Source: an uncultured bacterium (GTDB lineage Bacteria > Bacillota > Clostridia > Peptostreptococcales > Anaerovoracaceae). From it: DNA of 38,728 nt. The notes under the pieces are model-generated. The model saw only the letters and a program-made list of their open reading frames with translations. It did not search any database and was not told the DNA's origin. Positions 13,824 through 31,628 of this stretch are shown in pieces. The stretch spans positions 1 through 38,728 of the forward strand of contig CAJMLL010000022.1 in assembly GCA_905214225.1 (NCBI GenBank), written 5' to 3'. Position 1 is the stretch's first letter; every line of letters starts with the position of its first letter. The position numbers were made by a program, and so were the translations under genes.

Positions 13824-13899
13824 AAACCTCCTGAAAAGATGTTCATACAACATTGACAGATGCAAATTAATATATTATCACTTTCTCAATAAAATATAA

Positions 13900-18200: not shown

Positions 18201-18633
18201 GTGCTGTGTCCTGTTTCGTCTTCGCGTCGCTCTGCATTTTCGCGAGTGTATCCTTCGCCTTCTGATAATACGGCGCCGGATCGGTTCCGTAGGTTGTGGA
18301 TGTCGTGGCGTCCTTTACGGCATCGTAGGCTTTCTGTGCCGCCTCAACATTCTGGTCGGCCTTAGCCTTGGCGGCCTGCTTCTCCGCTACATCAGCCTTC
18401 GCTTCTTTCACGGCCTTCTGAGCTTCTTTCTGCGTGGCCGGTTTGGCGGAAGTCTTCACTCCGGTCTTTTTCACAGCCGGTGTCTTGCTGCCCGCTGCCT
18501 TGCCGGCTGCCGCGCCAGTGTCTGCGAATACGGAGACGGCAGATGCCGCAGCTCCTGTTGCTGCCATGACTCCGGACAGTACGACGGCTGCCGCGGCGTT
18601 TTTCTTGTTGATCTTTTCACTGTTCTTTCTCAT
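15229..18633 (-). CDS. Giant secreted coiled-coil protein with central CAP domain and Fn3-like C-terminus
   Basis: A 1134-residue exported protein. A signal peptide (about 1-38) precedes a very long coiled coil (about 60-440) of Ala/Gln/Lys/Glu heptads. A CAP/SCP domain lies at about 445-645 (YVDELNQYRNQEGLTTPL, then CENLSFGYKDPFAGWYTAEK and the typical VGHYLNIKN). A second coiled coil (about 650-1040) and an Fn3-like C-terminal domain (about 1060-1134: RRVTVRWKKVKNAKSYKLYIRYS) follow. CAP proteins are secreted modules with roles in adhesion, lipid binding or proteolysis. GAAAGGAG precedes the start. It sits 21 bases after a 31-codon gene, downstream of the TGAACCT-type promoter at 18778-18812, so it is a predicted target of the membrane sigma factors. 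It has no sortase motif. Confidence 0.9.
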   Translation of the reverse strand: MRKNSEKINKKNAAAAVVLSGVMAATGAAASAVSVFADTGAAAGKAAGSKTPAVKKTGVKTSAKPATQKEAQKAVKEAKADVAEKQAAKAKADQNVEAAQKAYDAVKDATTSTTYGTDPAPYYQKAKDTLAKMQSDAKTKQDTAQNAQKQAQENQQKAQADLKAKQDAYNQAVKNRDQAKQAYEEALKENPNAAQKLENDKASLSDAQQKQSEADQALQKAENTSENVHDSLTLAQQALTSAQAEAKEAAAAKTAAESAYQKAQTDYNSAKAELSKAENDSSVSDKKAAVKTAEQNLASAQAAVQTAEANKTKADSAVQAAQTKLDQAKQAQSSYTAQQKAAAEAKTKADQAQSTLNTKQTELNKVQQESSTLTQKAEQLKTRLAEANASVETAKQAVTQAQKNLDAANQKWKQAQTDAQNALAEAQDAYNNAGKNFIESKAKDGLKISDIRNLIANEDKNTFTYTDENNKEVTTTLKALYAQHKDEIESLVNAAYSLDNLKKGIAYVDELNQYRNQEGLTTPLTFSYDLMAFSAYSSAVGSYTLYHSVFNDAAVKTYMSNAGCPLKCENLSFGYKDPFAGWYTAEKEKYDGGEREYQKVGHYLNIKNATNSSAAITQVNTKFQDSRYSTSANLVTTYKKGGVDTAAVRKDLDAYVTAAKAKVSKAQAQLEALKTAPSDVTEAQTALNDANTALTEAQKAPAAVQKEIEQNQKDSAAKATELKTVQAEVTQAESDYQKAQTAYQKLSDEVAQNQEAADQAAASVKTAQTELEQTKAEQSKAATALSDANASVKSSQDALSTAEDALSHANETISSLNQKVTAAKTAVEQAKNTLDQAESADQAAQQKAASAQEQKDAASAKAAEAEKAVQDTQQKADAAAQAVRTAQDVLEKDTAANQKVLDAKSSQDSAEQALSSAKQAVSDAQKAVTTAKKALEEADAACSAAEAEAEKVNKISLDDQSSYAAYSDIADAMKQYQDAVKKGGSHTVTSPVDSSAQKKALEEAKAAQQKAQQDLSKAIANLTIVNHALDSLNAKAALGKGMITSMTSAKIRKGGKIVSNKRRVTVRWKKVKNAKSYKLYIRYSKNGKYKPAVKTSKTSYSFTVKKGTTIYAKVRALNGKKLGKTSSVKIVKAK

Positions 18634-18777: not shown

Positions 18778-18812
18778 CACTTAATAGATGCAGGCGGTCA
18801 GGCCGAGGTTCA
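18778..18812 (-). promoter_or_regulatory. ECF-type promoter, site A (TGAACCT-N15-CATCTATTAAGTG)
   Basis: On the minus strand a -35-like TGAACCT (18812-18806) and a -10-like CATCTA (18790-18785) are separated by 15 bases, with an A-rich tract upstream. Sequence and spacing equal sites B, C and D. It faces the 31-aa gene and the giant CAP/coiled-coil gene. Confidence 0.75.
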
Positions 18813-18992
18813 TTTTATTTTTGCTTTTTTTGAAATTTTTTTGAAAACCCATGATTTTTCCGCGGACAAAAACTGAACTCTGCAAGGAGACAGCTTGAAA
18901 ATGGCTGAATTCCAACGGTTTTGCGAAGCACCAGTAAATTATAAAGTTCTACAGATTTCCCGAAAAAAATCTGAGAAATAAATGAACTTCGA

Positions 18993-19250
18993 TTACTCCC
19001 GAAAAAAACCGCGTACAGATAAGTGAGATCGATGTTAAAACAGACCGATGGATATGCCAGTAAACACGGCCGAAGTTGAGGTATAAGCAGATTGCTTCCG
19101 GAATAATCCTCACACAGGTGGGCCGGGCCGTGGCGGAGTTAAGGTGGGCCGGATTACTCCTGAGAATAGTTCTTACATAGATAATCCAGACCTGCGGACG
19201 AGGTATACTGTATTACCCCGGGAAAATCACTACACAGACAAACCGAACAT
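18993..19250. repeat. Four degenerate direct repeats (ATTACTCC...TACACAGA type)
   Basis: Units starting near 18993, 19097, 19151 and 19212 share a GATTACTCC-like head, about 15 bases of variable sequence and a TACACAGA-like tail followed by CC. Spacing is irregular (54 to 104 bases) and identity is modest, so these may be decayed copies of one element. Confidence 0.35.
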
Positions 19251-19468
19251 ATGTTCAAAATATCAGATAATTACTGAAAATCCAGCAAATGAGCCGGGAC
19301 TGCAGTCTAGGTATACCGTATACACATATTCTGGTTCTGACTTTTCATCCATTCTCTCCTGCATTCCCGCTGATTTGTTAATTCTGCAGATGAAGGTATA
19401 GTTGTAATCGTAATATTCTGTATAAAACATGTATGTATATGAATTACATGATAATTTCCGGCCCCGAG

Positions 19469-19554
19469 GTCGGGAATATCTTCCTGAATCCATCATTTCC
19501 CGACTCGATTTTTTTCCAGTCGGGAAATTCAACTGAACAGGGCGTTTTCCCGAC
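19469..19554. repeat. Inverted-repeat cluster 1 (four alternating GTCGGGAAa / TTTCCCGAC sites)
   Basis: GTCGGGAAT at 19469, TTTCCCGAC at 19496, GTCGGGAAA at 19519 and TTTCCCGAC at 19546, with spacers of 18, 14 and 18 bases. Each neighbouring pair can form a hairpin, so alternative foldings exclude one another. Confidence 0.75.
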
Positions 19555-19788
19555 TTTGTATCTATCTGATTGTACACTAAAATATGCATTGTGGATATAT
19601 ATTAATTTATATGCATGTTTACTTGTGTATTCTGTATAATAAACACGGTTAGTCTATATGCATCGCTGGAAACGGTCACGGGTGTTGTGTCATAATCCTT
19701 CTTGAACAAAAGTTCTGATGATCAGATGCCCCATATTCGGAAATTGACTGCCGCAAGGCGTTTTTCCGAAATTCCTGGGCCAGAAAAA

Positions 19789-19874
19789 GTCGGGAATTCG
19801 ATGGTCACAAAGAGCTTTCCCGACCTTCATTTTGTGCAAGTCGGGAAAGCCCCACCTCTTAGTCATTTCCCGAC
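19789..19874. repeat. Inverted-repeat cluster 2 (same layout as cluster 1)
   Basis: GTCGGGAAT at 19789, TTTCCCGAC at 19816, GTCGGGAAA at 19840 and TTTCCCGAC at 19866, with spacers of 18, 15 and 17 bases. The cluster repeats cluster 1 exactly 320 bp further on, although the sequence between the 9-mers has diverged. A further hairpin with TTCGGAAA/TTTCCGAA arms precedes it (19737-19769). Confidence 0.75.
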
Positions 19875-20072
19875 TATTTTCGGTCATTTTCTACGAAATC
19901 AGTCTGAATAAACCATGTATAAGTATATTGTATACACGTGTTTCCGATTTCTCAACTTTCTGTTTTCCTGGTTTCTGTTTTTCGAGTCATATCGTTCGTC
20001 TTATTCCTATTCATCTTCAGCGGATCGAAAACATCAGTTGTCTGAAAACAGCATTTATCGGAAGATAGAAAA

Positions 20073-20104
20073 CCGGCAGCCGGAGAATCTTCTCCGGCTG
20101 CCGG
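20073..20104 (-). terminator. Strong terminator of the first sigma operon
   Basis: A 15-bp perfect stem (CCGGCAGCCGGAGAA and its complement) with a 2-base loop. On the minus strand it is followed by TTTTCT. It lies about 120 bases after the sigma gene's stop codon. Confidence 0.85.
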
Positions 20105-20152
20105 CTCATTATTCTACATATTCCGCGGACTCTGACAGGTCCGTTTTCCTGC

Positions 20153-20180
20153 GGAAAACCGCCTTTCTCTGCGGTTTTCC
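20153..20180 (-). terminator. Second hairpin downstream of the first sigma gene
   Basis: GGAAAACCGC / GCGGTTTTCC makes a 10-bp stem with an 8-base loop, 45 bases after the stop codon. It may back up the stronger terminator at 20073. Confidence 0.55.
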
Positions 20181-20224
20181 ATTACTATATCGGATATCTT
20201 CCGTACACCCTGAAACTCACAAGG

Positions 20225-22807
20225 CTATTTGCAAAGCTTCTCGATAAAGCTCTTTGCTTCTGCCTCGGAATGAATTCTGGTCCAGCCGCTGAGTTCCTGG
20301 AAGCTTCCGGACTTTGCTTTGCTCTCCATCTGACTGTAGGCCTGATTACCTCCGGAATTTTCTTCAAAGTTCAGCATGCCCTTCGCCGTGTTTTCTGTTG
20401 AACCATCATCTGTACTGTCAGGTGTATAGCTCTTCGCTGCCGCTTTGACAAGTTTCATTCCGGATGAAGTCAACTGGAGTTCATAAGCACCAACAGGTGC
20501 ATTCGCTGTTGTTACCTGTTCTGCAAGAGTATAAGTTCCGTCAGCTATAATATATCCATTGTTATTCACATACATCTTTCCATCCGCAACCAAAGTCGGG
20601 GTTCCAACAATGCGCCCATTTAAATATGTGACCATGTAAATATTATTGCCATTAACGGTTCCCTCCTGATCCCTAAAGAATATTTCCGGAACGCCATCGT
20701 TATTAATATCTTTTGCAAGCAGATCAAATTCTCCATTCTGATCAATCTGCTTGATTGTCTCATCTGGATCAACGTCGATATCATTGGTTTCCGGATCGCC
20801 GGTTTCAACTCCCGCTAGTGGAAAATCACCTTCCGTAAAGAATTTCAGATAAGCATCTTTCCAATTATCAGCATCAACGTCCTTCTTTATATTAACACCA
20901 GAAAGCATCAGCAGATTTTTCAGCTCACTCGTATAGGTATACGTTTTTTCACCTTTAGAATCCTCATCGCCGCTCAGATCCGTGACCCGGAAAGCATGGG
21001 ACGGACTTACATATTTACGTTTCACCTCCGAAGGTTCATCACTTGAACTGGAACTGGATGCTGCCTGATAAATCATAGTTTTATGATCATTATTGGATTT
21101 ACTGTACTTATATTCCGTTCCGCCATAGTATCCGTCACCCGATGAATCCTCCGCCATGTAGGCAATCCGGATAGTCTTCAGATCCTTCGTCGCCGTTACC
21201 ACCCACGGATCATTAACCGTACCCTGGTGGATATCGGTGATGACCTGCACATTATCCGGCGTGCGGACGACAATATAGGTGGTAGCACCGGAACTATCTG
21301 TCGAATAATTTTTGGCAGAAAAGACGATCATATCCGGAGTGCCATCACCGTCAAAATCCCGGGCAATGTACGGCGCATCTATAGACGACAGATCATAATC
21401 TGTTCCAGCATCATCTGATGACATCTCATAATTACTCTCCGCTGAGGCCATTTTAGTATACAGCGGTGTTAACACATCGCTGTAGCTGCCCATGATTTCG
21501 GCCTTGGACAGATTGGACTTCACATCCAGCGTCTCTGTTCCGGAATTTTTGCTGACTTTCCGCTCGATCGCGTTCTTGATCGGGGTTTTATGATGGGCGG
21601 CGTAGAATGTGTATCCGCCGAATCCGCCTCCGGCAACCAGTGCCGCCGCGATAACACCGGCGACGATTTTTTTCGCGGCGCCGCTGCCGGCCGCTTTTCC
21701 GGCTGCCGCTGCCGCGGATTTTCCAACGGTTTTACCGGCCGTACCGGCGGCATCCTTTACAGCGCCTTTCGCAGCTGCTCTTCCGGTATGTCTGCCTGCA
21801 CTCTGGGCGCCCTGCGCTGCGCTTTGTCCTGCGCTCTGCCCGGCACCATGTCCCGCATTCTGCCCTGCGGCATTTCTCGCCGCGCGGCTGGCATGGATGG
21901 CCTGCTGCCTCTGTTCCATTGCAGAATTTCTCACCATGCGGTCCGCCAGATCCGGCGTGGAGCTTCCGCTCCCGCCCCGTACGGCATGGGACGCTCCGCC
22001 GACGGCCCGGCTTTCAATTCCTTCTGCGGCTCTTCCTGCAGCTCCGGCCGATGCAGCGCCCGCTCCGAGCGCGGATGCTCCGGTAATCGCCTCCGCCGCT
22101 TTGGAAAGGGCAGACTGGCATCCTCTGTAAACCGCATGGGATGCGGCACTGCTCATCTGGAAATCCTTCGGCAGATTTGCCAGAGACTTATGCAGCAATG
22201 CAAACGGAAGTGCCAGAACGTGCAGACGAACATCGTACTTCTTCTCGTATGCTTCGATTTTTGCCCGAATGGCCTCTCTGGCCTTAAACAGACGGCTCTT
22301 TACCGTTCCCTCACTGATCTGCAGATAGGTAGCGATATCCGCGACCGACATCTCATCCAGATAGTAGAGGCAGACAACTACCCTCTGCTTTTCCGGAAGT
22401 TCTCTGACCACCTCGCGGATAATTGCGCGGACTTCCTCCCTGTCCAGTTCATTTCCCGGCATCAGCGATTCATCGTCATCTTCCATGCGGTCAAAGAAAT
22501 CCGCACCCTCTTCATCGTCATCCTTGGTTACGGTTATTTCCTTTCCGTTTTTCCGGTAAAAGGCGTAAATCTTGTTTCTCAGAATCGTCTTTCCCCATGG
22601 AATGAACTTATCCGGATCATCCAGACTGCTGATCGAGTTGATGATCTGAATGTAGGTATCCTGGATCGCATCATTGATCAGCTCCTCATCTTTTCCCGCC
22701 ACCATGCAGGCATAGCGGTAGAAGTCATCCTTGCTGCGGATAAAGATCTCATCAAACGCATCCGGTTTTCCGTTCTGATACTGAACGACATAATCTCTCA
22801 GTTCCAT
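20225..22807 (-). CDS. Membrane-anchored ECF-type sigma factor with extracellular FG-GAP-like region (paralogue 1)
   Basis: An 860-residue fusion. Residues 1-190 are an ECF sigma-70 factor: region 2 (about 22-90, with DAIQDTYIQIINSI and the promoter-melting segment WGKTILRNKIYAFYRKNGK) and region 4 (about 132-185, with LPEKQRVVVCLYYLDEMSVADIATYLQISEGTVKSRL split over its HTH). A conserved segment (190-230) leads to an Ala/Gly/Ser-rich linker (230-378), one membrane helix (about 381-402) and an extracellular part of about 450 residues with DFDGDGTPD (483-491) and DINNDGVPE calcium-loop-like motifs. The sigma part must lie inside and the sensor outside. It is the last gene of an operon with FHA and zinc-ribbon genes. 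Release by proteolysis or action at the membrane is inferred. Confidence 0.9.
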   Translation of the reverse strand: MELRDYVVQYQNGKPDAFDEIFIRSKDDFYRYACMVAGKDEELINDAIQDTYIQIINSISSLDDPDKFIPWGKTILRNKIYAFYRKNGKEITVTKDDDEEGADFFDRMEDDDESLMPGNELDREEVRAIIREVVRELPEKQRVVVCLYYLDEMSVADIATYLQISEGTVKSRLFKAREAIRAKIEAYEKKYDVRLHVLALPFALLHKSLANLPKDFQMSSAASHAVYRGCQSALSKAAEAITGASALGAGAASAGAAGRAAEGIESRAVGGASHAVRGGSGSSTPDLADRMVRNSAMEQRQQAIHASRAARNAAGQNAGHGAGQSAGQSAAQGAQSAGRHTGRAAAKGAVKDAAGTAGKTVGKSAAAAAGKAAGSGAAKKIVAGVIAAALVAGGGFGGYTFYAAHHKTPIKNAIERKVSKNSGTETLDVKSNLSKAEIMGSYSDVLTPLYTKMASAESNYEMSSDDAGTDYDLSSIDAPYIARDFDGDGTPDMIVFSAKNYSTDSSGATTYIVVRTPDNVQVITDIHQGTVNDPWVVTATKDLKTIRIAYMAEDSSGDGYYGGTEYKYSKSNNDHKTMIYQAASSSSSSDEPSEVKRKYVSPSHAFRVTDLSGDEDSKGEKTYTYTSELKNLLMLSGVNIKKDVDADNWKDAYLKFFTEGDFPLAGVETGDPETNDIDVDPDETIKQIDQNGEFDLLAKDINNDGVPEIFFRDQEGTVNGNNIYMVTYLNGRIVGTPTLVADGKMYVNNNGYIIADGTYTLAEQVTTANAPVGAYELQLTSSGMKLVKAAAKSYTPDSTDDGSTENTAKGMLNFEENSGGNQAYSQMESKAKSGSFQELSGWTRIHSEAEAKSFIEKLCK

Positions 22808-22865
22808 ATCTTTTCAGGTTTCCCCTTGTCTCCTTTTCTTTTCGTCAAAATCAATACAATCCCTG

Positions 22866-24203
22866 CTATTTCAAGGAATACATCGTATACTTCACGCTAT
22901 ATTCGGAGCTGTCCGTCAAGTCATCTACGGCCTTGTCCGGCGAAGTGAATTCATAACAGAACATTGTGTAGGCATCTGCCTTCGGCTCCAGGGACGTGGT
23001 CATGTTCACATCGGTTTCCTGCTCAATATCCGCATCATTATAGGTAAAATCGGTGACGGTAGAATTAAACGGCCCGACGAGGACGCGCACATACCTGGTT
23101 ACACTGGAGTCCAGAGTATCTCCGTCATCATCCGTATAGACGTCCGGATCCGTCTGCATCTTATAGATCAGAACCAGGTAATCCGCCTTATTCTTCCCAT
23201 CCGCCTTCGCGAAGTAGGAGGAATACAGGCTGCCTGATTTATATTCCGTGAAATAACCATCGGAATTTTGTATTTCTTTCGATACAACCTTCTCCGCATT
23301 GGATATGAACTGCGCGCCCTTCTGCTTCGCTTCTGTCCCGTCGGCATAACGCACGTCCAGTCCTTTCACGGTGAAGGATTTGCTCTTATTCAGTCCGACG
23401 ATCCGGATGTGCAGGTCGCTCTGCAGCCGGCGGAGCTTCTGATTGTCATAGTGCGTTTTGATCGTCACCTGCAGGGAGTCTCCGTTAGCGATATTCTTCT
23501 TCTTGCTGTAGGTCATATAAAGACTGTTTTCAAACTCCGTCCACTCCGTTTCTTCCCGGGATGCACTGAATTCGCTGGTTTCCGACTTTTTCACTGTCTG
23601 CGGCGTTTTGATACTGTCCACAGCTTCCTGTGCGATCTTCGCCTCACCGCTGAATCCCTCGATGGAGCCCGTCTGGAAATGCAGATTCTTATCCAGGTCG
23701 ATTTTCTCCCGCGTGAAATAGGAATGCGCGTACATACCGCCTCCGATGGCGGCAGCGGCCAGCACGATGATCAGGACGATCATGAGAATTTTCTTCGCCA
23801 GCCGGCGGTTCCATTCCTTTGACTCGGCCGGTGCGTCATAATCATACAGATCCTTCTGCGGCGCCGGCTCCTCCTTCAGGGCCTCGCGGATGATGGAGGG
23901 ATGCGCCTCTCTGCGCACTTCCCTCTGCTCTTCCTGCTCTTCCCGGTGGTCCGGCCCCACAGCCCTTCCGCCGAGGAAATCCCTGTTTTGATTCTTTACC
24001 GCGCGGTTTTCCAGATTATCGGTGTTTTCCGCAGATCTGCCAGACAAAAAATCCCCGCCAAGGTCCTGGCCTGGATGCTGGCCGGCCGGGCTTTCATCAT
24101 GGTCTTGCGCATTGTTTTTTGTCCGGGGTGTGACAACGGCTCCGCAGTAGATGCAGTAGGTCGAGTTGTCACGAATTTCTCTTCCACAATTTCTGCAAAT
24201 CAT
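22866..24203 (-). CDS. Zinc-ribbon single-pass membrane protein (sigma partner, paralogue 1)
   Basis: A 445-residue protein. The N-terminal zinc ribbon has Cys3, Cys6, Cys17 and Cys20 (CRNCG...CIYCG). A hydrophilic charged linker leads to one membrane helix (about 138-159), then about 285 extracellular residues starting with the segment KNLHFQTGSIEGFSGEAKI. The same order and an equivalent SIEGFNGDAKI segment occur in the gene at 30035, also directly upstream of a membrane sigma factor. The repeated pairing suggests a partner or anti-sigma-like regulator, but it has no recognisable anti-sigma domain. It starts 8 bases after the FHA gene and ends 58 bases before the sigma gene. Confidence 0.82.
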   Translation of the reverse strand: MICRNCGREIRDNSTYCIYCGAVVTPRTKNNAQDHDESPAGQHPGQDLGGDFLSGRSAENTDNLENRAVKNQNRDFLGGRAVGPDHREEQEEQREVRREAHPSIIREALKEEPAPQKDLYDYDAPAESKEWNRRLAKKILMIVLIIVLAAAAIGGGMYAHSYFTREKIDLDKNLHFQTGSIEGFSGEAKIAQEAVDSIKTPQTVKKSETSEFSASREETEWTEFENSLYMTYSKKKNIANGDSLQVTIKTHYDNQKLRRLQSDLHIRIVGLNKSKSFTVKGLDVRYADGTEAKQKGAQFISNAEKVVSKEIQNSDGYFTEYKSGSLYSSYFAKADGKNKADYLVLIYKMQTDPDVYTDDDGDTLDSSVTRYVRVLVGPFNSTVTDFTYNDADIEQETDVNMTTSLEPKADAYTMFCYEFTSPDKAVDDLTDSSEYSVKYTMYSLK

Positions 24204-24211
24204 GATAACTC

Positions 24212-25258
24212 CTATCGCATGCCGATTCTGACGGTCATTTCAATGTTTCCGAGACGGATCTGGTCGCCGTCCATCAGGTAATACTGCTGATTTTCCGGAA
24301 GACGGTGTTCGCTTAAGTAGGTTCCCTTGACGGAGCCCAGGTCCATGATGGCCAGCTGTCCGTTCACGCGGTCGATTCTGCAGTGGACCGGAGAGATGCT
24401 GGAATCCGGAAGGTCGTAGGCTGCCTCGTGCGGGTCGCTTCCGATGGTTGCCGGGAAGCGCATGATGCCGATGGAGAAGCCGTCTCCTTCAAGGCGGAGC
24501 GCCGGGGCACTCGGCATGACGCCGCCCTCACTGCGGGATCTTCTCGGTGCTCTCTGCGTCTGCGGTCTTTCATAGTGAACGGCTGGTCTGGAAGCAGCGA
24601 CTTCATAGACGTGCGGGACCCAGCCCGGCTTCTTGAATCCGGTGGAATCGAATTCCATGATTTCTGCCGGCAGGTTGATCTGGTTCTTATCCAGAAGATG
24701 GATGATCCACGGGGCGATGATTCCGATGAGGAAGATAATGAATATAAACTTCATTCCAATTCCGCCGTGAAGAATATCTAATAGAGCATCTGTTATTGAA
24801 GCAGTTAAATAGTTATCAGACGAATCTTTTGGTGTAATTGCAACAATACCAATAAAAATTACTACCCAGGTCGCAATGATCATGCCAAAATCAACCCACA
24901 GCCACCTCCTGGACAGCCTGCAGAATTCATCCTGATTATGATTTAAAAACAGATACATCAGCGCGATCGCGATTCCGATGATCATGACATATGGAAGAAC
25001 TGCCAGAATATAGAAAAACACTTCTATCGTCAGGTAAGCTCCACCCGTACTCGCGTTATCAAATTCCATTCCGAGCAATTCATTCGCGTCAGTGACTAGT
25101 CTATGGACTATAAAAAGACCTTTTGCGCCAGTGACACTCTTTGCTCCTGCAAATACTTCCGATTCTATGCTCAGCCACGGCATAAATAAGAATGCGATGG
25201 CGATCAGTCCGTCGATGATCATCATTCCGATTGTCCGGATGTCGAATCTCCTGTTCAT
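24212..25258 (-). CDS. Membrane protein with C-terminal FHA domain
   Basis: A 348-residue product. Four hydrophobic segments (about 10-28, 75-105, 122-145 and 168-190) are followed by a cytoplasmic FHA domain (about 258-346) with the signature IGSDPHEAAYDLPDSSISPVHCRI and DLGSVKGTYLSEHRL. FHA domains bind phosphothreonine peptides, so a Ser/Thr kinase input is expected, but none is in the window. AGAGAGGAAAG precedes the start. It is the upstream member of the FHA, zinc-ribbon, sigma operon; the second sigma operon has no FHA gene. Confidence 0.87.
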   Translation of the reverse strand: MNRRFDIRTIGMMIIDGLIAIAFLFMPWLSIESEVFAGAKSVTGAKGLFIVHRLVTDANELLGMEFDNASTGGAYLTIEVFFYILAVLPYVMIIGIAIALMYLFLNHNQDEFCRLSRRWLWVDFGMIIATWVVIFIGIVAITPKDSSDNYLTASITDALLDILHGGIGMKFIFIIFLIGIIAPWIIHLLDKNQINLPAEIMEFDSTGFKKPGWVPHVYEVAASRPAVHYERPQTQRAPRRSRSEGGVMPSAPALRLEGDGFSIGIMRFPATIGSDPHEAAYDLPDSSISPVHCRIDRVNGQLAIMDLGSVKGTYLSEHRLPENQQYYLMDGDQIRLGNIEMTVRIGMR

Positions 25259-25315
25259 TTTCTTTCCTCTCTTTTTTATTCTTGCTTGATGCTAGATGTT
25301 ATTTGATAATTCCTG

Positions 25316-25347
25316 AAGCGGCCAGCCGGAGAAGCTTCCCCGGCGCC
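25316..25347 (-). terminator. GC-rich hairpin between the secreted 196-aa gene and the FHA gene
   Basis: GCGGC-cag-CCGG pairs with CCGG-c-GCCGC around an AGAAGCTTCC loop. No T-run follows on the minus strand, so it may only attenuate transcription into the FHA/sigma genes. Confidence 0.45.
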
Positions 25348-25378
25348 GCCTTCTGTTTTCCTTTATTTTCTCATTCCT

Positions 25379-25969
25379 CTAGAACTGTACATCCTGCACG
25401 CTCCAGCCGTTCTCGCCTTCCACATCAAAGTTGTATGCGTGGTTGATCCGGTGCTTGTAGTTTTTCATTGCTCTGCTGCATGGAACGCCGGCATTGCACT
25501 CTGCGATCAGAAGGTAATACTTCTGGAATCCGTTCGTGAGTTTTACCAGCTTTACTCCGTGATAAAACTGTGCGTTGACGACTGCCTCTCTGCGACTGCC
25601 AAATGTCTGAATATATGTGGACGCGCTGCCGTATGTATCCTTTCTGCTATAGCAGGACTTCGGATTAATTCTGATCGAACTGTCATATCCACGGCTTCTG
25701 GTAATGTAATAGGATCCTGAGAATTCCGGGTCAATATAAACGACTGCGTGATGGTCAATGTCGATCTTTCCCAGATCCTTTCGATATTCATAGATCGTGG
25801 TATGGCTGATATGATCTCTCTGAATCACTTTTTTCCCGGTTATCGCATGTGCCGGGATCAATGACATGGAAAAGACCATGATCATGACCAGGATTACGGC
25901 CAGTCTGCGGATTCTTCCTGCTGCGTTTTCTTTTCTGTTTTCCTCTGTGCTGATCTGTGTGAACTTCAT
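25379..25969 (-). CDS. Secreted 196-aa protein of unknown function
   Basis: The signal peptide covers about residues 20-42 (hydrophobic core then PAHA). The mature part has about 150 residues, is Tyr/His/Arg-rich and has Cys pairs (one at SCYS.., two in ECNAGVPCSR), which could form a disulfide. I recognise no family. GAGGAG precedes the start. It lies just downstream of promoter-like sites B and C and upstream of the FHA, zinc-ribbon and sigma genes, so it probably heads that transcription unit. Confidence 0.75.
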   Translation of the reverse strand: MKFTQISTEENRKENAAGRIRRLAVILVMIMVFSMSLIPAHAITGKKVIQRDHISHTTIYEYRKDLGKIDIDHHAVVYIDPEFSGSYYITRSRGYDSSIRINPKSCYSRKDTYGSASTYIQTFGSRREAVVNAQFYHGVKLVKLTNGFQKYYLLIAECNAGVPCSRAMKNYKHRINHAYNFDVEGENGWSVQDVQF

Positions 25970-26036
25970 TTTTCTGCTCCTCTCTTCTTCTGAAGTATTG
26001 ATTATCGTATTTCATGCAAGGCTTTTTCCTTCCTTA

Positions 26037-26071
26037 CACTTAATAGATGCATGCCGGAAGCTGCAGGTTCA
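26037..26071 (-). promoter_or_regulatory. ECF-type promoter, site B
   Basis: TGAACCT (26071-26065), 15 bases, then CATCTATTAAGTG (26049-26037) on the minus strand, preceded by a run of eight A. It would give a leader of about 60 bases before the secreted 196-aa gene and could drive the first sigma operon. Confidence 0.75.
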
Positions 26072-26128
26072 TTTTTTTTGGAAATTTTTTCGCAGTTTTT
26101 TTCCGGTTCTGAGGAGCAGTAAAAATAA

Positions 26129-26173
26129 CTGCCCCTCACCTCTCATTTAATAGATGCAAGAGGTGAGGGGCAG
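26129..26173 (-). terminator. 15-bp perfect inverted repeat with a T-rich tail, overlapping promoter site C
   Basis: Arms CTGCCCCTCACCTCT and AGAGGTGAGGGGCAG pair fully around a 15-base loop. On the minus strand the stem is followed by TTATTTTT, so it fits a terminator of the NPCBM gene. The loop holds the CATCTATTAAATG element of promoter site C. Confidence 0.75.
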
Positions 26174-26178
26174 GTTCA
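26144..26178 (-). promoter_or_regulatory. ECF-type promoter, site C (inside a hairpin)
   Basis: TGAACCT (26178-26172), 15 bases, then CATCTATTAAATG (26156-26144). It is the second, tandem element upstream of the 196-aa gene. Its spacer and downstream flank are complementary and form the hairpin at 26129-26173. Confidence 0.65.
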
Positions 26179-26206
26179 CTTTTTCTTTAATTATTTTTCA
26201 AATAAA

Positions 26207-26992
26207 TTAGTCGGCAAAGTAAAGCATAGCTTTTCCAAGTCCAATTTTTCCATATGTATAACCCTCGGCTCCCTGAATTAATAATCTGTTTACTCCACGA
26301 AGATCAATTTCAACCTTCTGCGGAAAAGCCGCACTTACACATGAGACAGTTTTAATAAGGTTATTATGGTTGTTGCCGTCACTGGAGTAGAATGAAATAC
26401 TGCGAGTATTCCCTGGATCATGACCATCAAGATATCCGACATAGCATGTCATCTTTGAATATTTCCCATGCAGATTAAAATATGCATAACTATTATCTTC
26501 ACCATACATATAGAATCCAGGAGCATAATTGTCACCAGCCATAGTTAACTCTGAAGATTCCCATCCAAATTCACTATATTTATATGGAGCCTGATTGACA
26601 TCCTTAGGAGAAACAGCTTCGTTTAATGGAATATAACCAGTATTGGACAGTGAACCATTGCGTCTGCTGTTATACCCACGTACCCGGAAAGAATACCCCT
26701 TTCCCAAGGTTAAACCTGAAATCGTATAGTACCTCTTACTTGTGGTCTTGATCAGGCTGTAGCTGCCGCCGCTCGCTTTCATATAGAGTTTGTAGCCGGA
26801 TGCGTACTGGGATTTTCCCCACTTAACCTTAATGGTTGTCGCTCCTTTTCTAAAAACAGTCAGATTTACTGTTGTCGGCTTCTTGGCCTTGGACGCTGCA
26901 TGTGCGGATTCCGCAGTGGCCGGGATCATGGCGATGAGAAGTGCCGCTGCCAGCAGCAGGCAGGCTGCTGCTCTGCTGATTTTTCTAGTCAT
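26207..26992 (-). CDS. Secreted Fn3-NPCBM carbohydrate-binding protein
   Basis: A 261-residue protein with a signal peptide (about 5-32), one Fn3 domain (about 40-125: TVNLTVFRKGATTIKVKWGKS...YKLYMKASGG) and a C-terminal NPCBM-like domain (about 135-261). The NPCBM part shows FYMYGEDNSYAYFNLHGKYSKMTC, CYVGYLDGHD and VEIDLRGVNRLLIQG, split here for brevity. NPCBM domains bind glycans on secreted glycosidases; here no catalytic domain is attached. It is probably a surface lectin-like protein. It ends in the hairpin at 26129-26173. Confidence 0.83.
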   Translation of the reverse strand: MTRKISRAAACLLLAAALLIAMIPATAESAHAASKAKKPTTVNLTVFRKGATTIKVKWGKSQYASGYKLYMKASGGSYSLIKTTSKRYYTISGLTLGKGYSFRVRGYNSRRNGSLSNTGYIPLNEAVSPKDVNQAPYKYSEFGWESSELTMAGDNYAPGFYMYGEDNSYAYFNLHGKYSKMTCYVGYLDGHDPGNTRSISFYSSDGNNHNNLIKTVSCVSAAFPQKVEIDLRGVNRLLIQGAEGYTYGKIGLGKAMLYFAD

Positions 26993-27053
26993 AATTTTTC
27001 ATCCTTTCTCTCTAATTCTTTATTTGAAATAAATGACTGACATATGTTTCTTT

Positions 27054-27074
27054 TCTCCTGAAGCATTCAGGAGA
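27054..27074. repeat. 9-bp hairpin overlapping the stop codon of the 51-aa gene
   Basis: TCTCCTGAA / TTCAGGAGA pair around a 3-base loop. No T-run follows on the minus strand, so this is not a clear terminator. Confidence 0.45.
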
Positions 27075-27222
27075 CCATATCGGGCTGAATGTAATCGGCT
27101 TCGATGCAGTCTTCCCCGGCAAGATCGCGGATGTCCAGCATCCGCAGAATGACGCCGAGCATGTCGTCATCTCCCTGCATAAAGCAGTGTACCGCCCACG
27201 CAAATTTCTGGTCTTCAGTCAA
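27067..27222 (-). CDS. 51-aa acidic small protein, TTG start
   Basis: A short frame begins with TTG, 8 bases after GGGAGG. It encodes a well-balanced acidic protein (TEDQKFAWAVHCFMQGDDDM, then LGVILRMLDIRDLAGED and a short tail). The composition is protein-like, with an amphipathic helix pattern. No family is recognised. It lies 74 bases upstream of the NPCBM gene on the same strand and could be co-transcribed with it. Confidence 0.6.
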   Translation of the reverse strand: MTEDQKFAWAVHCFMQGDDDMLGVILRMLDIRDLAGEDCIEADYIQPDMVS

Positions 27223-27560
27223 GACGACCACCTCCCGTTTTCCTTTTCTCTGAATTTTTTCAGATGCGGAAGAAGGGAAAATGTATTTTCCTTCCTTTCA
27301 GAACGCTGCCGAAGACCAGACTTTCTCCCATCCGATTATTCGGTAAAACTCCTTGTTCTCTACACGTTCCGATCATAATTTTACACGAAGTTCAATACAC
27401 TTCTTATTTTGTACCCTTCTCCCATAAATATCAAGGTAAAATAATATATTTTACACAGATCGGATAAGGATATCCTACTGTGCAGAATAATCATCCAATC
27501 AGCTACTTCGCATCAATATAGTGCTCAGATGAATTTCAAGTATTCTATTTTCTCTGTATC
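27223..27560. other. 338-bp intergenic region downstream of the second sigma gene
   Basis: No gene is seen. It is AT-rich and contains the palindrome GTAAAATAATATATTTTAC at 27436-27454. Directly after the sigma stop codon (27563-27525) 12 in-frame codons resemble the paralogue's continuation (see findings). No GC-rich terminator is visible. Confidence 0.55.
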
Positions 27561-29993
27561 CTAGCAGTCAAATCCTGAATCCTGCAGCAGTGAACGGAGT
27601 TCATCACAGGATTTATAAGAATGCACGTCTTTGGCTTCCGAATCACCGTCCCATTCTAAGCAAATTCGATGTGCATATGGCGCATTGACATATTTCTCCT
27701 TAATTGCAGAAGAAGAATCGGAGTCTGTACCGGAAGACTTCAAGTAGATCATGGTCTTGTGATCATTCGGCGAAAGCTGATATGTATATTCTCTTCCTTC
27801 TGAGTAGGTCAATTCAGACGATCCGCTGTCACCAAAAAATGCCAGACGGACGGTTTTATTATCAGAAGTAACAGAGATTCGTTCACCTGTATCATTATTA
27901 TAAATCGGATGCTTATCCCGAATTACCTGCACACCACTTGGAGAATTCAAAATAACATTCGTTGTAGCCGTACCATCTGCATCATAGTTCTTTGTATCAA
28001 TTGCGATCAGATCTGGCACTCCGTCACCATCATAATCCTTTGCGAAATAAGACTGTGGCGTTGTAACAGCAGTATTACTTCCATCATCTGGATCTACTTC
28101 ATCTGGATGTTCTTCCTTATAGTCGTTTTCCAGCTTTTCCTCATTGCTAAGCAATTCACTGATTGCCTTGTCGTATTGATTCATGACGCTCTGATTATCC
28201 GATGAAGAGCTGTCGGACTGGCTGTTCTCGGACGTCTGGCTATCCGTCTGCTGGCTGTTCTTCTGGGCCGGCTCATTTTTGTCTGTCTTCACGGCAGAAT
28301 GCTTGCCTGCCGATACAACGCCCTGCTTCGGATGAGTCTTGGCGTTACTGTAGGCATGCCAGAGATAACCGCCGAATCCGCCGCCGGCTGCCAGGGCCAG
28401 AGCGATCACGCTGGCGATAATTTTCTTTGCTGCGCCGTTTCCGGCCTTTCCGGCTGCCTTCGCGGCTCCCTTCGCCGCTGTCTGACCGGCTCTTCCGGCT
28501 CGTTTTGCGGCTTCGCGTCTCGCTGCCCGGCCGACGGTCACGTGTTCAGGCGCAGGGACTCCGCCGGATTCTTTCATCAGGCGGCTGACGGTTTCCGGGG
28601 CTGACTCGTGAGCGCCCGCCGGATTTCCTGCTGCGAATCCGCCCTCTGCATGGCCTGCATAGGAGCTGCCCTGCATGGAAGCTGCATCCGGGGTCTGCGC
28701 GGAATCTCCCGTCCAGCGGTCTTCGGAAGACGGCGCTGCGTTACTGGAGTCCGCGGCATGGCCTGCAGCATATCCGGCTCCGGCCGCCGGCTCTGCTTTT
28801 CCTGCCGATCTTCTGATCAGCTGGTCTGCTGTCTCTGGCTTTGTGCCTGCTCCGGCAGATCTGCCTGCAGGACCGGCCTGAATGTTCTGTTTCGGCGCTT
28901 CTGCAGATCTTTTCACCAGACGGTCTTCCGGCGAAGGCGAAGCCGTTTTTCCTGCGGTATGAGAAGGTCCGCCAACGGCTCTTCTTTCCAGAATATCCGA
29001 GGAGTTTCTTTCCGGCCTTCCTGAAGACGGTTTATGTTCGGTATTCACGACTCTGTGTTCTGCAGGATGCTCTGCCGCGTGGCCCGCCTTTACCGCCTTC
29101 TGTGGTCCTTCTGCGGCCCTGTGCGCCGGATGCTCTCCTGCGTGATGTACGGAATTTCCTTTTCCAGCCGCATCAGATTTTTTACCGGCAGCACTTCTGT
29201 GGGCTTCTGCCGCGCCTCTTCCCGCAGCTCCTGCAGCTGCCGCGCCGGCCCCAAGGGCGGAAGCGCCGGCCGCCGCTCCCGCTTTCTTTCCAAGGGACGA
29301 CTTGCAGCCATGATAAACGGCATGGGATGAGGCATCGCTCATCTGGAAATCTTTTGGCAGATGGGTAAGAGACTTATGCAGCAGTGCGAACGGAAGTACG
29401 AGAGCGTGCAGACGGACGTCGTATTTCTTCTCGTATCCTTCGATTCTCGCCCGGATGGCCTCTCTGGCCTTATAGAGACGGCTCTTTACGGTTCCCTCAC
29501 TGATCTGCAGGTAGGCGGCAATGTCCGCTACAGACATTTCATCCAGATAATAGAGGCAGACCACCACCCTCTGCTTTTCCGGAAGACTGCGGACAACATC
29601 CCGGATAATCGAACGGACTTCCTCCCTATCCAGTTCATTTCCCGGCATCAGCGACTCATCCTGATCTTCCAGACGGTCGAAGAAGCTGGCGCCCTCTTCA
29701 TCCTCGTCCTGAGTCATGGTCAATTCTTTTCCGTTTTTCCGGTAGAAGGAATAAATCTTATTTCTCAAAATTGTCTTTCCCCAAGGGACAAACTTATCCG
29801 GATCATCCAGCCGGTCGATAGAATTCAGAATCTGGATGTAGGTATCCTGCATCGCGTCGTTAATCAGTGTTTCATTCTTTCCTGCCACAAAATAGGCATA
29901 GCGGTAAAAATCATCCTTGGTGCGGAGAAAGATTTCATCAAAGGCATCCGTTCTTCCGTTTTTATACTGCTCTACATAATCTCTCAGTTCCAT
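27561..29993 (-). CDS. Membrane-anchored ECF-type sigma factor (paralogue 2, C-terminally truncated)
   Basis: An 810-residue paralogue of the protein at 20225. Sigma region 2 (about 22-90: DAMQDTYIQILNSI, WGKTILRNKIYSFYRKNGK) and region 4 (about 132-185: LPEKQRVVVCLYYLDEMSVA, DIAAYLQISEGTVKSRLYK) are strongly conserved. The Ala/Gly/Pro/Ser-rich linker is about 290 residues, much longer than in paralogue 1. One membrane helix (about 524-548) and an extracellular part with DYDGDGVPD (about 655-663) follow. It ends at GFDC, about 190 residues before the paralogue's end, losing the second calcium-loop-like motif. It follows the zinc-ribbon gene by 41 bp in an operon headed by promoter site D. Confidence 0.9.
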   Translation of the reverse strand: MELRDYVEQYKNGRTDAFDEIFLRTKDDFYRYAYFVAGKNETLINDAMQDTYIQILNSIDRLDDPDKFVPWGKTILRNKIYSFYRKNGKELTMTQDEDEEGASFFDRLEDQDESLMPGNELDREEVRSIIRDVVRSLPEKQRVVVCLYYLDEMSVADIAAYLQISEGTVKSRLYKAREAIRARIEGYEKKYDVRLHALVLPFALLHKSLTHLPKDFQMSDASSHAVYHGCKSSLGKKAGAAAGASALGAGAAAAGAAGRGAAEAHRSAAGKKSDAAGKGNSVHHAGEHPAHRAAEGPQKAVKAGHAAEHPAEHRVVNTEHKPSSGRPERNSSDILERRAVGGPSHTAGKTASPSPEDRLVKRSAEAPKQNIQAGPAGRSAGAGTKPETADQLIRRSAGKAEPAAGAGYAAGHAADSSNAAPSSEDRWTGDSAQTPDAASMQGSSYAGHAEGGFAAGNPAGAHESAPETVSRLMKESGGVPAPEHVTVGRAARREAAKRAGRAGQTAAKGAAKAAGKAGNGAAKKIIASVIALALAAGGGFGGYLWHAYSNAKTHPKQGVVSAGKHSAVKTDKNEPAQKNSQQTDSQTSENSQSDSSSSDNQSVMNQYDKAISELLSNEEKLENDYKEEHPDEVDPDDGSNTAVTTPQSYFAKDYDGDGVPDLIAIDTKNYDADGTATTNVILNSPSGVQVIRDKHPIYNNDTGERISVTSDNKTVRLAFFGDSGSSELTYSEGREYTYQLSPNDHKTMIYLKSSGTDSDSSSAIKEKYVNAPYAHRICLEWDGDSEAKDVHSYKSCDELRSLLQDSGFDC

Positions 29994-30034: not shown

Positions 30035-31531
30035 TTAATAGATATCATTTGGCATTTTATAAAGGGTATACTGATAACTCAATTCATCCCCGTTATGGAG
30101 TGAGTGGAGTACATCCTTCTCGCTGTCGAATTTCATGACATAGGCGTTCATATGACTATCAACTGGATCCTGTGATTCTGATTTTGCATCTATTACAAAA
30201 TCCTCATCATCAACAGACAGTTTAGAATACGAGGTATCACTGACACTGGTATTAAACGGCCCAACCAGGACACGCAGATATACCGGATCATCCAAATCGC
30301 TGTCCCGCTCCTTGGCTTTGTAAATCAATACCAGAAAATCGACGGCATCCTTCTCCTTATTCTTTGCGAAATATGTGGATACCAGCTTCGGATTCGCGTA
30401 GTACTGATAGCCGAAGTACTTTTTCTCCTGGAAAAACCTCTCCATATTCGTCCTTGCATCCTCAGCAAAGGAACCTCCATCTTTTTCCGCCTGCTTTCCA
30501 TTCTTGTATCTTCTCGGAATGCTGGTTATCTTTTCTTTCTTTGTCTTACCGATTCCGACAAAACGGACATGGAAATCATCTTCGACCTGTTTCACTGCCT
30601 CTTCGGAGTAGTGAGTATTCAGGGTCATCTTGATGGTATCCCCGTTTTTCAGATTTTTCTTTTTGTCGATGGTGACGTAGAGACTGTCCTTAAAATCACT
30701 CCACTCGGCCTCATTCTTAAATTCACTGTAATAGCCGGAAGAATCCAGACTTCCCATGGTCTTCGGATTCTTGACCGTGAATTTTGCCCCTCCTGTAATC
30801 TTCGCGTCACCGTTGAATCCCTCGATGGACTTCTGCGGAATCGTCACGGTGCTGAGAATGTCAATCCGCTGGCGGGAGAAATAGTCGTAAGCCCTGACAC
30901 AGGCGATAATTCCCGCAATCAGCACGCAGATGATCACGATGATGGTGATGATGCGCTTCCGCGGCTCCATAGCACGGAAACGGTTTACCAGCACCAACCC
31001 GGATGCCGCCGCTGCCCGGCTCCGGCTTTCCATCCGGCTCTCCGGCTCATCCCAGTCCCCCTCAAAGAGGCGGCCCGCGCTCTGCTTCTGCCCTGCTTTT
31101 ACGCTGCGATCGGCATCAGGGTTTCCGTCAGTCCGCGCATTTCCGCCGGCATTCCCGTAAGCCCTTCCGTTCCCGGCATTCCGGCCCGACTGTGCATCCC
31201 GCTCTGCATTCTCGTAGTGAGCACTCCGATTCGCACGCACATAGTTTTCCGCTGCCGGATGGCCGCTCTGCGGTTCTTTCTTATGAGAATCATCAAAAAC
31301 TCCATCAGTTTCCTGATTATCGATGTATTCTTCCCAGCTCTCAGGATGACGATTTTCCATCTTCTCTGCTTCCAGATTTTCTTCGGGCGCCGCTGTGCTC
31401 TGATCGGTCGTATCTGCTGCAGACTTATTCTGATCCGCACTTTCCGGCTGATCATCCCCAATTAATGCTCCACAGTATATGCAAAATGAAGAGTGATCCG
31501 GGATCTCCATTCCACAGTTTTTACATTTCAT
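30035..31531 (-). CDS. Zinc-ribbon single-pass membrane protein (sigma partner, paralogue 2)
   Basis: A 498-residue paralogue of the gene at 22866. The zinc ribbon uses Cys3, Cys6, Cys17 and Cys20 (CKNCG...CIYCG). A long acidic then Arg/Gly/Asn-rich linker (about 25-190) leads to a membrane helix (about 193-215) and an extracellular domain with SIEGFNGDAKI and a segment VLVGPFNTSVSDTSY that corresponds to VLVGPFNSTVTDFTY in paralogue 1. It is the first gene of the second sigma operon, about 57 bases after promoter site D. Confidence 0.82.
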   Translation of the reverse strand: MKCKNCGMEIPDHSSFCIYCGALIGDDQPESADQNKSAADTTDQSTAAPEENLEAEKMENRHPESWEEYIDNQETDGVFDDSHKKEPQSGHPAAENYVRANRSAHYENAERDAQSGRNAGNGRAYGNAGGNARTDGNPDADRSVKAGQKQSAGRLFEGDWDEPESRMESRSRAAAASGLVLVNRFRAMEPRKRIITIIVIICVLIAGIIACVRAYDYFSRQRIDILSTVTIPQKSIEGFNGDAKITGGAKFTVKNPKTMGSLDSSGYYSEFKNEAEWSDFKDSLYVTIDKKKNLKNGDTIKMTLNTHYSEEAVKQVEDDFHVRFVGIGKTKKEKITSIPRRYKNGKQAEKDGGSFAEDARTNMERFFQEKKYFGYQYYANPKLVSTYFAKNKEKDAVDFLVLIYKAKERDSDLDDPVYLRVLVGPFNTSVSDTSYSKLSVDDEDFVIDAKSESQDPVDSHMNAYVMKFDSEKDVLHSLHNGDELSYQYTLYKMPNDIY

Positions 31532-31593: not shown

Positions 31594-31628
31594 CACTATA
31601 TAGATGCAGCCAGTCAGCCGGAGGTTCA
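31594..31628 (-). promoter_or_regulatory. ECF-type promoter, site D
   Basis: TGAACCT (31628-31622), 15 bases, then CATCTATATAGTG (31606-31594) on the minus strand, with eight A upstream. It faces the zinc-ribbon/sigma operon, which suggests autoregulation. Confidence 0.75.

Follow-up and report, generated by a model that had tools for sequence, protein, structure and literature searches.

Two paralogous ECF sigma factors with a predicted membrane helix and outer part in one chain, and a promoter-like element before their gene clusters, in a clostridial contig

The contig CAJMLL010000022.1 of an uncultured bacterium of the Anaerovoracaceae (38,728 bases, analyzed whole and hereafter called the window) encodes on its minus strand two paralogous extracytoplasmic function (ECF) sigma factors, S1 and S2, whose chains continue into an Ala/Gly-rich linker, one predicted membrane helix, and an outer part. 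These proteins are probably membrane-tethered, one-chain envelope sensors that share a single promoter type, TGAACC-N15-GCATCTAT, and drive an autoregulated envelope regulon. The architecture, the grouping with relatives, and the promoter-like sites with their places were read directly from the sequence. The parts of the two proteins are as follows.

20225-22807, minus strand: S1, ECF sigma factor of 860 amino acids (aa) that continues into an Ala/Gly linker, a single predicted membrane helix, and an outer part of ~460 aa
27561-29993, minus strand: S2, paralogue of S1 with a longer linker and a shorter outer part; 810 aa
22541-22723, minus strand: S1 sigma region 2, residues 29-89 (PF04542)
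22271-22426, minus strand: S1 sigma region 4, residues 128-179 (PF08281)
22106-22255, minus strand: partly conserved S1 segment after sigma region 4, residues 185-234, with two extra helices in the model
21671-22105, minus strand: variable Ala/Gly-rich linker of S1, residues 235-379
21611-21667, minus strand: predicted membrane helix of S1, residues 381-399, with K380 before it and a GG pair within
28365-28421, minus strand: predicted membrane helix of S2, residues 525-543
20228-21610, minus strand: outer part of S1, residues 400-860
21332-21358, minus strand: DFDGDGTPD loop of S1, residue 484 (weak PF01839 match)
20684-20710, minus strand: DINNDGVPE loop of S1, residue 700
28011-28037, minus strand: DYDGDGVPD loop of S2, residue 653

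The first-pass annotation of this DNA had credited both proteins with complete sigma regions 2 and 4, and the profile searches bore this out. Sigma70_r2 and Sigma70_r4_2 scored above the Pfam cut-offs in S1 (E-values of 2e-7 and 2.1e-16) and in S2 (1.2e-9 and 4.7e-16), TIGR02937 was also above its cut-off (6.1e-27 and 3.9e-28, respectively), and regions 2 and 4 were the only sigma regions, in the arrangement of ECF (group 4) factors. The sigma parts of S1 and S2 are 83-85% identical; identity is 60% over S1 residues 1-387 and 34% over the helix and outer part. A frameshifted copy as the origin of S2 was rejected, as a different sequence, P0004, has the same length and end. All 54 rows of an alignment of S1, S2, and 52 helix-bearing relatives matched sigma domains. 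Over roughly residues 1-186, the profile built from this alignment matched solved chains of SigW, sigma-E, and AlgU. The segment that follows region 4 is of the YEKKxGxKLxxxxPxxLL type and is partially conserved. In the predicted structure of S1 residues 1-234 (predicted local distance difference test [pLDDT], 81.9), the closest solved chain was SigW bound to RsiW (TM score, 0.62; root mean square deviation [rmsd], 5.7), and the model was less like polymerase-bound sigma-E (TM score, 0.41; rmsd, 27). We give an autoinhibited state suggested by this model little weight, the modeled sigma part being that of S1 alone.

The long Ala/Gly linker and single helix of the first-pass annotation also held, as predictions from hydropathy. 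Each protein has one Kyte-Doolittle segment, with 19-residue peaks at 381-399 in S1 (1.76) and 525-543 in S2 (1.74). A helix occupies the same place in the 54 aligned rows (median peak, 2.09; range, 1.39 to 2.74), the 52 relatives having been picked on a helix that passes a hydropathy threshold of 1.6. Its flank charge is higher on the inside than on the outside in 39 of the 54 rows, equal in 10, and lower in 5, and several positions are conserved: K380 is Lys in 45/52 rows, and Gly is found at G393 in 42/54, at G394 in 40/54, and at G398 in 42/50. The stretch from L195 to K380 spans 185 residues in S1, 329 in S2, and 42 to 329 across the rows. We infer from these patterns that S1 and S2 are inserted in the membrane with the sigma part inside. 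Sensor and sigma factor would thus sit in one chain on either side of a helix, as first annotated, and the relatives share this plan. No anti-sigma family was matched in the seven window proteins scanned with Pfam, and a zinc-finger anti-sigma domain between sigma part and membrane had no Pfam match in S1 or S2 at E ≤ 1, nor did it appear among 25 of the 29 families matched in the 54 rows.

Relatives with a membrane helix after the sigma part (sigma-TM proteins) form a group of their own. A protein search restricted by length to long proteins (7,993 scored candidates; E ≤ 1e-5) gave 36 matches, S1 included, of which 35 have a helix by the hydropathy rule and only P0001-P0004 are close. In an alignment-based genome scan, taking the best 80 of at least 550 loci, a helix followed the sigma part in 52 of the 80 matched frames, the remaining 28 frames being no longer than 248 residues. 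In a midpoint-rooted tree of 82 rows, one side (support, 89/63) held all 54 sigma-TM rows together with 4 short rows, and the other held 24 soluble ECFs; the next forks have supports of 93/83 and 96/87. Three of the four short rows reach the end of the available DNA, and the fourth is broken by N and has a helix-bearing frame after it. The five label changes counted in the tree arise because these four short records are incomplete. S1 and S2 group with the genome UBA3738, their nearest relative (99/95). By record titles the sigma-TM loci belong to Bacillota, mostly Clostridia, except for L046 (uncultured bacterium). Close relatives are sparse, with matches in 8/197 genomes of the family of UBA3738 at E ≤ 1e-20 and in 2/393 of its order at 1e-35; plasmid and phage collections returned 5 and 2 records, which matched the sigma part only. 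Among 91 families in the 93 immediate neighbors of the sigma-TM genes, the commonest were Zn_Ribbon_1 (6), SLH (5), DZR (5), and LRR_5, RCC1, Big_2, and fn3 (3 each), and none of the 25 families examined was an anti-sigma family. One neighbor, a 145-aa protein encoded between an amidase-like and a sigma-TM gene (L001:7537-7974, plus strand), resembles the neighboring sigma (phmmer, 2.2e-6, with the longer frame) and has no Pfam match at 0.01; it may be a decoy sigma, or a degenerate one, with a modulating effect on its neighbor.

The outer parts vary from one member to another. Families recognized there in the 54 rows were Big_2 (7), LRR_5 (2), RCC1 (1), DUF6273 (1), and PdaC (1). The DxDGDGxPD motifs of the first-pass annotation do exist, two loops in S1 and one in S2, whereas the FG-GAP match stayed below its cut-off of 22.1 bits (S1, 18.9; S2, 11.5), so that neither protein reached the family threshold for FG-GAP/VCBS repeats. 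A DxDGDG motif is present in 15 of the 36 protein-database matches (S1 counted) and in 3 of the 52 helix-bearing relatives. It is no family trait, the calcium-loop reading is weak, and the calcium-loop sensor, for which a defining role is not supported, is one of many outer modules. A database search with S1 residues 405-860 matched only P0001-P0003, S1 included, and we assign no fold, propeller or other, to this part. In L115:1938-4187 (minus strand), an N-terminal ribbon accompanies outer FG-GAP-like matches like those of S1 (21.9 of 22.1 bits). At L013:7965-14082, the sigma-TM outer part is 35-41% identical to an adjacent 1,299-aa protein, and the outer part of L011 matches a second sigma-TM protein. 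Resemblance of the outer part to a neighboring product was rejected as a general rule, being seen only in L013 among the 52 relatives, besides L011.

Both sigma clusters lie behind the same promoter-like element, which occurs four times in the window, always on the minus strand, and 0 times in 100 shuffles; the element was defined from the sites themselves, so the shuffle figure measures rarity and is no blind test.

31600-31628, minus strand: TGAACC-N15-GCATCTAT, 68 nucleotides (nt) before the gene of ZnR1, a zinc-ribbon protein encoded ahead of S2
26043-26071, minus strand: TGAACC-N15-GCATCTAT, 73 nt before the gene at 25379-25969, upstream of the FHA-ZnR2-S1 row
26150-26178, minus strand: TGAACC-N15-GCATCTAT, 180 nt before the same gene, inside a terminator-looking 14-bp inverted repeat
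18784-18812, minus strand: TGAACC-N15-GCATCTAT, 150 nt before the gene of a 1,134-aa protein, with a possible 31-41-aa frame between

A -35 element with an AAC core before the own operon is a trait of many ECF sigma factors, and TGAACC sites stand before both sigma clusters, their use by S1 and S2 being putative. At 26150-26178, the promoter-like sequence and a perfect 14-bp inverted repeat with a T-rich tail overlap, so that a single element may serve both as the end of one gene and as the start of the next. The repeat was rejected as a promoter part, as it is clear in only one of eight sites (four in the window, four in UBA3738).

An independent check on the element came from the UBA3738 genome. 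Of its five TGAACC-N15-GCATCT matches in 2 Mb, four lie in a 17.6-kb stretch of a sigma-TM/zinc-ribbon/FHA/kinase cluster; each of the other 348 genomes of the family has 0 to 3. The four sites (contig C41: 5916, 7237, 15903, and 23465) all point into genes and precede a secreted-looking protein gene, a TPR-TM-like/zinc-ribbon/FHA-ABC row, the sigma-TM row, and a zinc-ribbon gene row; the one at 15903 overlaps the end of the preceding gene. Another relative, G023, has TGAACC-N15-ACGCCTATATAG before its sigma-TM gene. Within 400 bp upstream, TGAACC was found in 15 of 66 sigma-TM genes of relatives versus 5.2 expected from shuffling, with 1 for the reversed motif and 5 for the antisense one. When the -10 was loosened, after these TGAACC sites were known, 7/66 genes matched versus 0.11 expected. 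With this pattern, 14 matches were found in 63 loci: those 7, 2 in UBA3738, 1 in L034, where it precedes a zinc-ribbon membrane protein, and 4 others. On this evidence, autoregulation appears well supported in the window and UBA3738 and suggestive in several relatives, most of the sigma-TM relatives examined showing no upstream site of this type.

The genes behind these sites form two related minus-strand clusters, ZnR1-S2 and FHA-ZnR2-S1.

22866-24203, minus strand: ZnR2, N-terminal zinc ribbon (PF13240, 1.6e-7), one hydrophobic segment (139-157), and a long C-terminal part
30035-31531, minus strand: ZnR1, same architecture as ZnR2 (PF13240, 1.1e-7), hydrophobic segment 187-205
24212-25258, minus strand: FHA-domain protein, FHA at residues 271-337 (PF00498, 1.4e-14), four N-terminal hydrophobic segments
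25379-25969, minus strand: secreted-looking 196-aa protein, before the FHA gene and directly downstream of two promoter-like sites
15229-18633, minus strand: 1,134-aa protein, a proposed member of the regulon, with a hydrophobic segment at the N terminus; Pfam gave no match at 0.001
20070-20107, minus strand: strong intrinsic-terminator-like hairpin (17 pairs) after S1

Gaps within the clusters are 8 nt (FHA-ZnR2), 58 nt (ZnR2-S1), and 41 nt (ZnR1-S2). Each window sigma gene is thus preceded by a zinc-ribbon protein with one hydrophobic segment; the duplicated ZnR-sigma pair is common to the two clusters, ZnR1 and ZnR2 being 30% identical, whereas the FHA gene occurs in the S1 cluster only. 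The pairing of the sigma factors with a zinc-ribbon membrane protein and an FHA protein, as first annotated, stands in part. For the ribbon, it is backed by the window gene order, by sites before zinc-ribbon genes in UBA3738 and L034, and by N-terminal fusions, but it is not general. A four-cysteine ribbon opens the sigma protein itself in L030 (again as L088), L031, and L106 (again as L115), although Zn_Ribbon_1 is over the Pfam cut-off only in L030 (32.2 bits; L115, 16.2; L031, 13.2). For FHA, the support comes from UBA3738, in which the genes after the sigma-TM gene encode a protein with a zinc ribbon and FHA, one with two FHA domains, and a TPR-bearing protein kinase. In Lachnospiraceae NC2004, several sigma-TM genes share one region with genes for a PASTA kinase and for zinc-ribbon membrane proteins. 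No zinc-ribbon gene was found among the 94 genes beside the 28 short-frame ECF loci, a control that mixes phyla and includes the four incomplete records. A genome count of zinc ribbons was rejected as independent evidence: 25 of 122 matches in 12 genomes lay within ~10 kb of a sigma-TM gene, several being two ribbons of one gene, and all 25 came from five genomes (G001, which is UBA3738, G002, G008, G009, and G011) whose zinc-ribbon/FHA neighbors had been seen before counting, versus 0 in the other seven.

In the reading that we prefer, the sigma part would lie in the cytoplasm, the Gly-rich helix would span the membrane, and the outer part would sense a surface condition. On a signal, the sigma part would gain the use of core RNA polymerase, most likely once the chain is cut within the helix or next to it; S1 and S2 would then start transcription at the TGAACC-N15-GCATCTAT promoters. 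Since these sites stand before ZnR1-S2 and before the row leading to S1, the system would amplify itself, and the gene of the secreted-looking protein would be transcribed with it. With nearly identical sigma parts and different outer parts, S1 and S2 would bring two inputs to a single regulon. Their cluster partners, the zinc-ribbon membrane proteins and the FHA protein, would probably adjust the activity of the sigma or couple it to Ser/Thr phosphorylation. Use of the sites by S1 and S2, the extent of the operons, sigma release, and the partner roles are the steps that this model adds to the sequence observations.

Several results weigh against this model. TGAACC is missing from the 400 bp upstream of 51 of the 66 sigma-TM genes of relatives, and shorter cores were not clearly enriched there (TGAAC, 27 versus 21.9 expected; GAACC, 24 versus 19.6; GAAC, 49 versus 53.1). 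The first relaxed pattern was upstream of only 2/52 genes (39 of 10,400 random windows; 0.2 expected), a generic ECF pattern of only 4/53 (1.2 expected from shuffles and 2.2 from random windows), and a wider pattern counted in 34 genomes gave UBA3738 four matches (three on C41), barely above the three of G012. Zinc-ribbon genes were not significantly more frequent within two genes of sigma-TM genes (13/164) than farther away (14/312; Fisher P = 0.14), and no kinase was seen in the window. Neither a protease nor a conserved cleavage site was found, and the genes next to the sigma genes included no evident protease. The window helix is rich in Gly and just moderately hydrophobic. Finally, the AlphaFold2 model of the S1 outer part (5 sequences) has a mean pLDDT of only 40.

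How the sigma part would become active is the point on which explanations diverge most. Some membrane regulators, of the ToxR/CadC type, work tethered and uncleaved. The sigma part could likewise act from the membrane, its long flexible linker reaching core RNA polymerase and membrane-near promoters; the wide range of linker lengths fits reach better than a fixed cleavage site, and the apparent lack of a neighboring protease gene agrees with it. Yet the GG pair, present in the helix in 40 of the 54 rows, would suit an intramembrane-protease substrate, although also helix packing, and IutY, described in the accessible part of PMC8999054 as the one tested ECF fusion, is cut. We favor release by a cut within the helix or close to it, to which we give about even odds; uncleaved action at the membrane is possible but rather unlikely. 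Alternatively, the zinc-ribbon membrane protein could be the true anti-sigma factor, holding the sigma through its ribbon and freeing it on a signal, with the sigma helix serving only to colocalize the pair. The gene order, found twice in the window, speaks for this, as do the N-terminal ribbons of the sigma proteins in L030 (over cut-off) and in L031 and L106/L115 (by cysteine pattern and subthreshold match). However, Zn_Ribbon_1 occurs in just 6 of the 93 immediate neighbors, ZnR2 has few close relatives (4 matches, itself included), and the CxxC-CxxC ribbon presumably differs from the HxxxCxxC anti-sigma zinc domain, making this an unlikely account.

Two further explanations dispute the sites or the helix. 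That the sites belong to a dispersed repeat, act as terminators, or serve a different sigma factor as promoters would fit the 26150 site, with its inverted repeat and the T-rich DNA after it, and the putative nature of their use by S1 and S2. It is improbable in view of the repeat being confined to one of the eight sites, the 15-base spacers being mutually unlike, the exact spacing, the orientation into genes, and the recurrence of the same blocks at the related cluster of another species. That the hydrophobic segment is not inserted, leaving S1 and S2 as soluble sigma factors with long cytoplasmic tails, draws on the Ala/Gly-rich composition and moderate hydropathy of the helix in both proteins. 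Against it, all 52 frames longer than 248 residues, among the 80 loci, have a helix here that is often more hydrophobic, and modules common in secreted proteins, Big_2 and LRR_5, follow it in some rows; we regard a soluble protein as very improbable. The tethered one-chain sensor with a shared promoter type is thus the explanation we retain.

Elsewhere in the window, three transglutaminase-core proteins are encoded near the sigma clusters (5478-7673, 9776-11431, and 12234-13865), one with a weak fn3 match. About 1.4 kb (18812-20185) holds no convincing gene and has recurring TTTCCCGAC/GTCGGGAAA words. A tRNA-Ser lies at the left end (1482-1569) and a phage-integrase-family gene at the right (32856-33941; PF00589, 1.4e-27), and the contig may include the border of a mobile element.

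More broadly, and more tentatively than for the window pair, we suggest a large clostridial transmembrane-ECF group of one-chain sensors with interchangeable outer modules, no anti-sigma domain, and autoregulated promoters of the TGAACC-N15/16-[CT][AG]TCTA type, some lineages being wired to zinc-ribbon proteins and FHA/Ser-Thr kinases and some perhaps transcribing from the membrane. The stronger result appears to be the one-chain membrane sigma group, with the window pair and UBA3738 behind the same promoter-like element and with zinc-ribbon and FHA/kinase links; what seems new is the element before both clusters and the 1,134-aa gene. Sensor and sigma in one chain, together with a predicted promoter, would give gut and rumen clostridia a simple system of just two parts, a protein and a promoter. 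The predicted promoter opens the targets of this system to direct tests in vitro, and the two paralogues, which differ in their outer parts and share a promoter type, would be a clean case of two inputs on one regulon. No title on clostridial sigma-TM factors was among those examined in our literature search; these factors may already fall under an existing ECF group number.

As far as the accessible parts of the sources go, envelope sigma factors are most commonly controlled by a separate anti-sigma protein (PMC8999054), and extension-bearing ECFs are spread across many groups (PMC8103513). ECF48, ECF52, and ECF53 are expected to be fused to a membrane part that carries a zinc-finger domain (PMC8999054); ECF52 is given as confined to Actinobacteria in PMC5826349, which also describes SCO4117. 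These actinobacterial factors, such as SCO4117, resemble S1 and S2 in that a single chain holds the ECF sigma, a membrane segment, and an outer part, and release by proteolysis has been proposed for them, as here for S1 and S2 (PMC8999054 and PMC5826349, in part). They differ in the zinc-finger anti-sigma-like domain between sigma and membrane, for which S1 and S2 show no Pfam match at E ≤ 1; a membrane segment after the sigma part is, by hydropathy, common to both. IutY of Pseudomonas putida (ECF243), presented in PMC8999054 as the one experimentally characterized membrane-fused ECF, is also a sigma fused to a membrane part. That part is an anti-sigma factor answering a xenosiderophore, unlike the single helix and varied outer parts of S1 and S2. 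The sigma-I/RsgI pairs of Clostridium thermocellum, in which sigma-I is not an ECF sigma, share with S1 and S2 clostridial envelope sensing by several paralogues. RsgI is cleaved within its helix by RseP according to the accessible part of PMC12203970. Sensor and sigma are separate proteins there, unlike in S1 and S2. To our knowledge, the ECFs linked to Ser/Thr kinases, such as EcfP of ECF43, are not membrane-fused. These kinase-linked ECFs (ECF43 EcfP and others, in PMC8999054 as far as accessible) share a possible phospho-control, suggested here by the FHA gene in the window and the FHA and kinase genes of UBA3738. Although they lack a detectable anti-sigma domain, S1 and S2 appear to work like the ECF52, ECF53, and IutY fusions.

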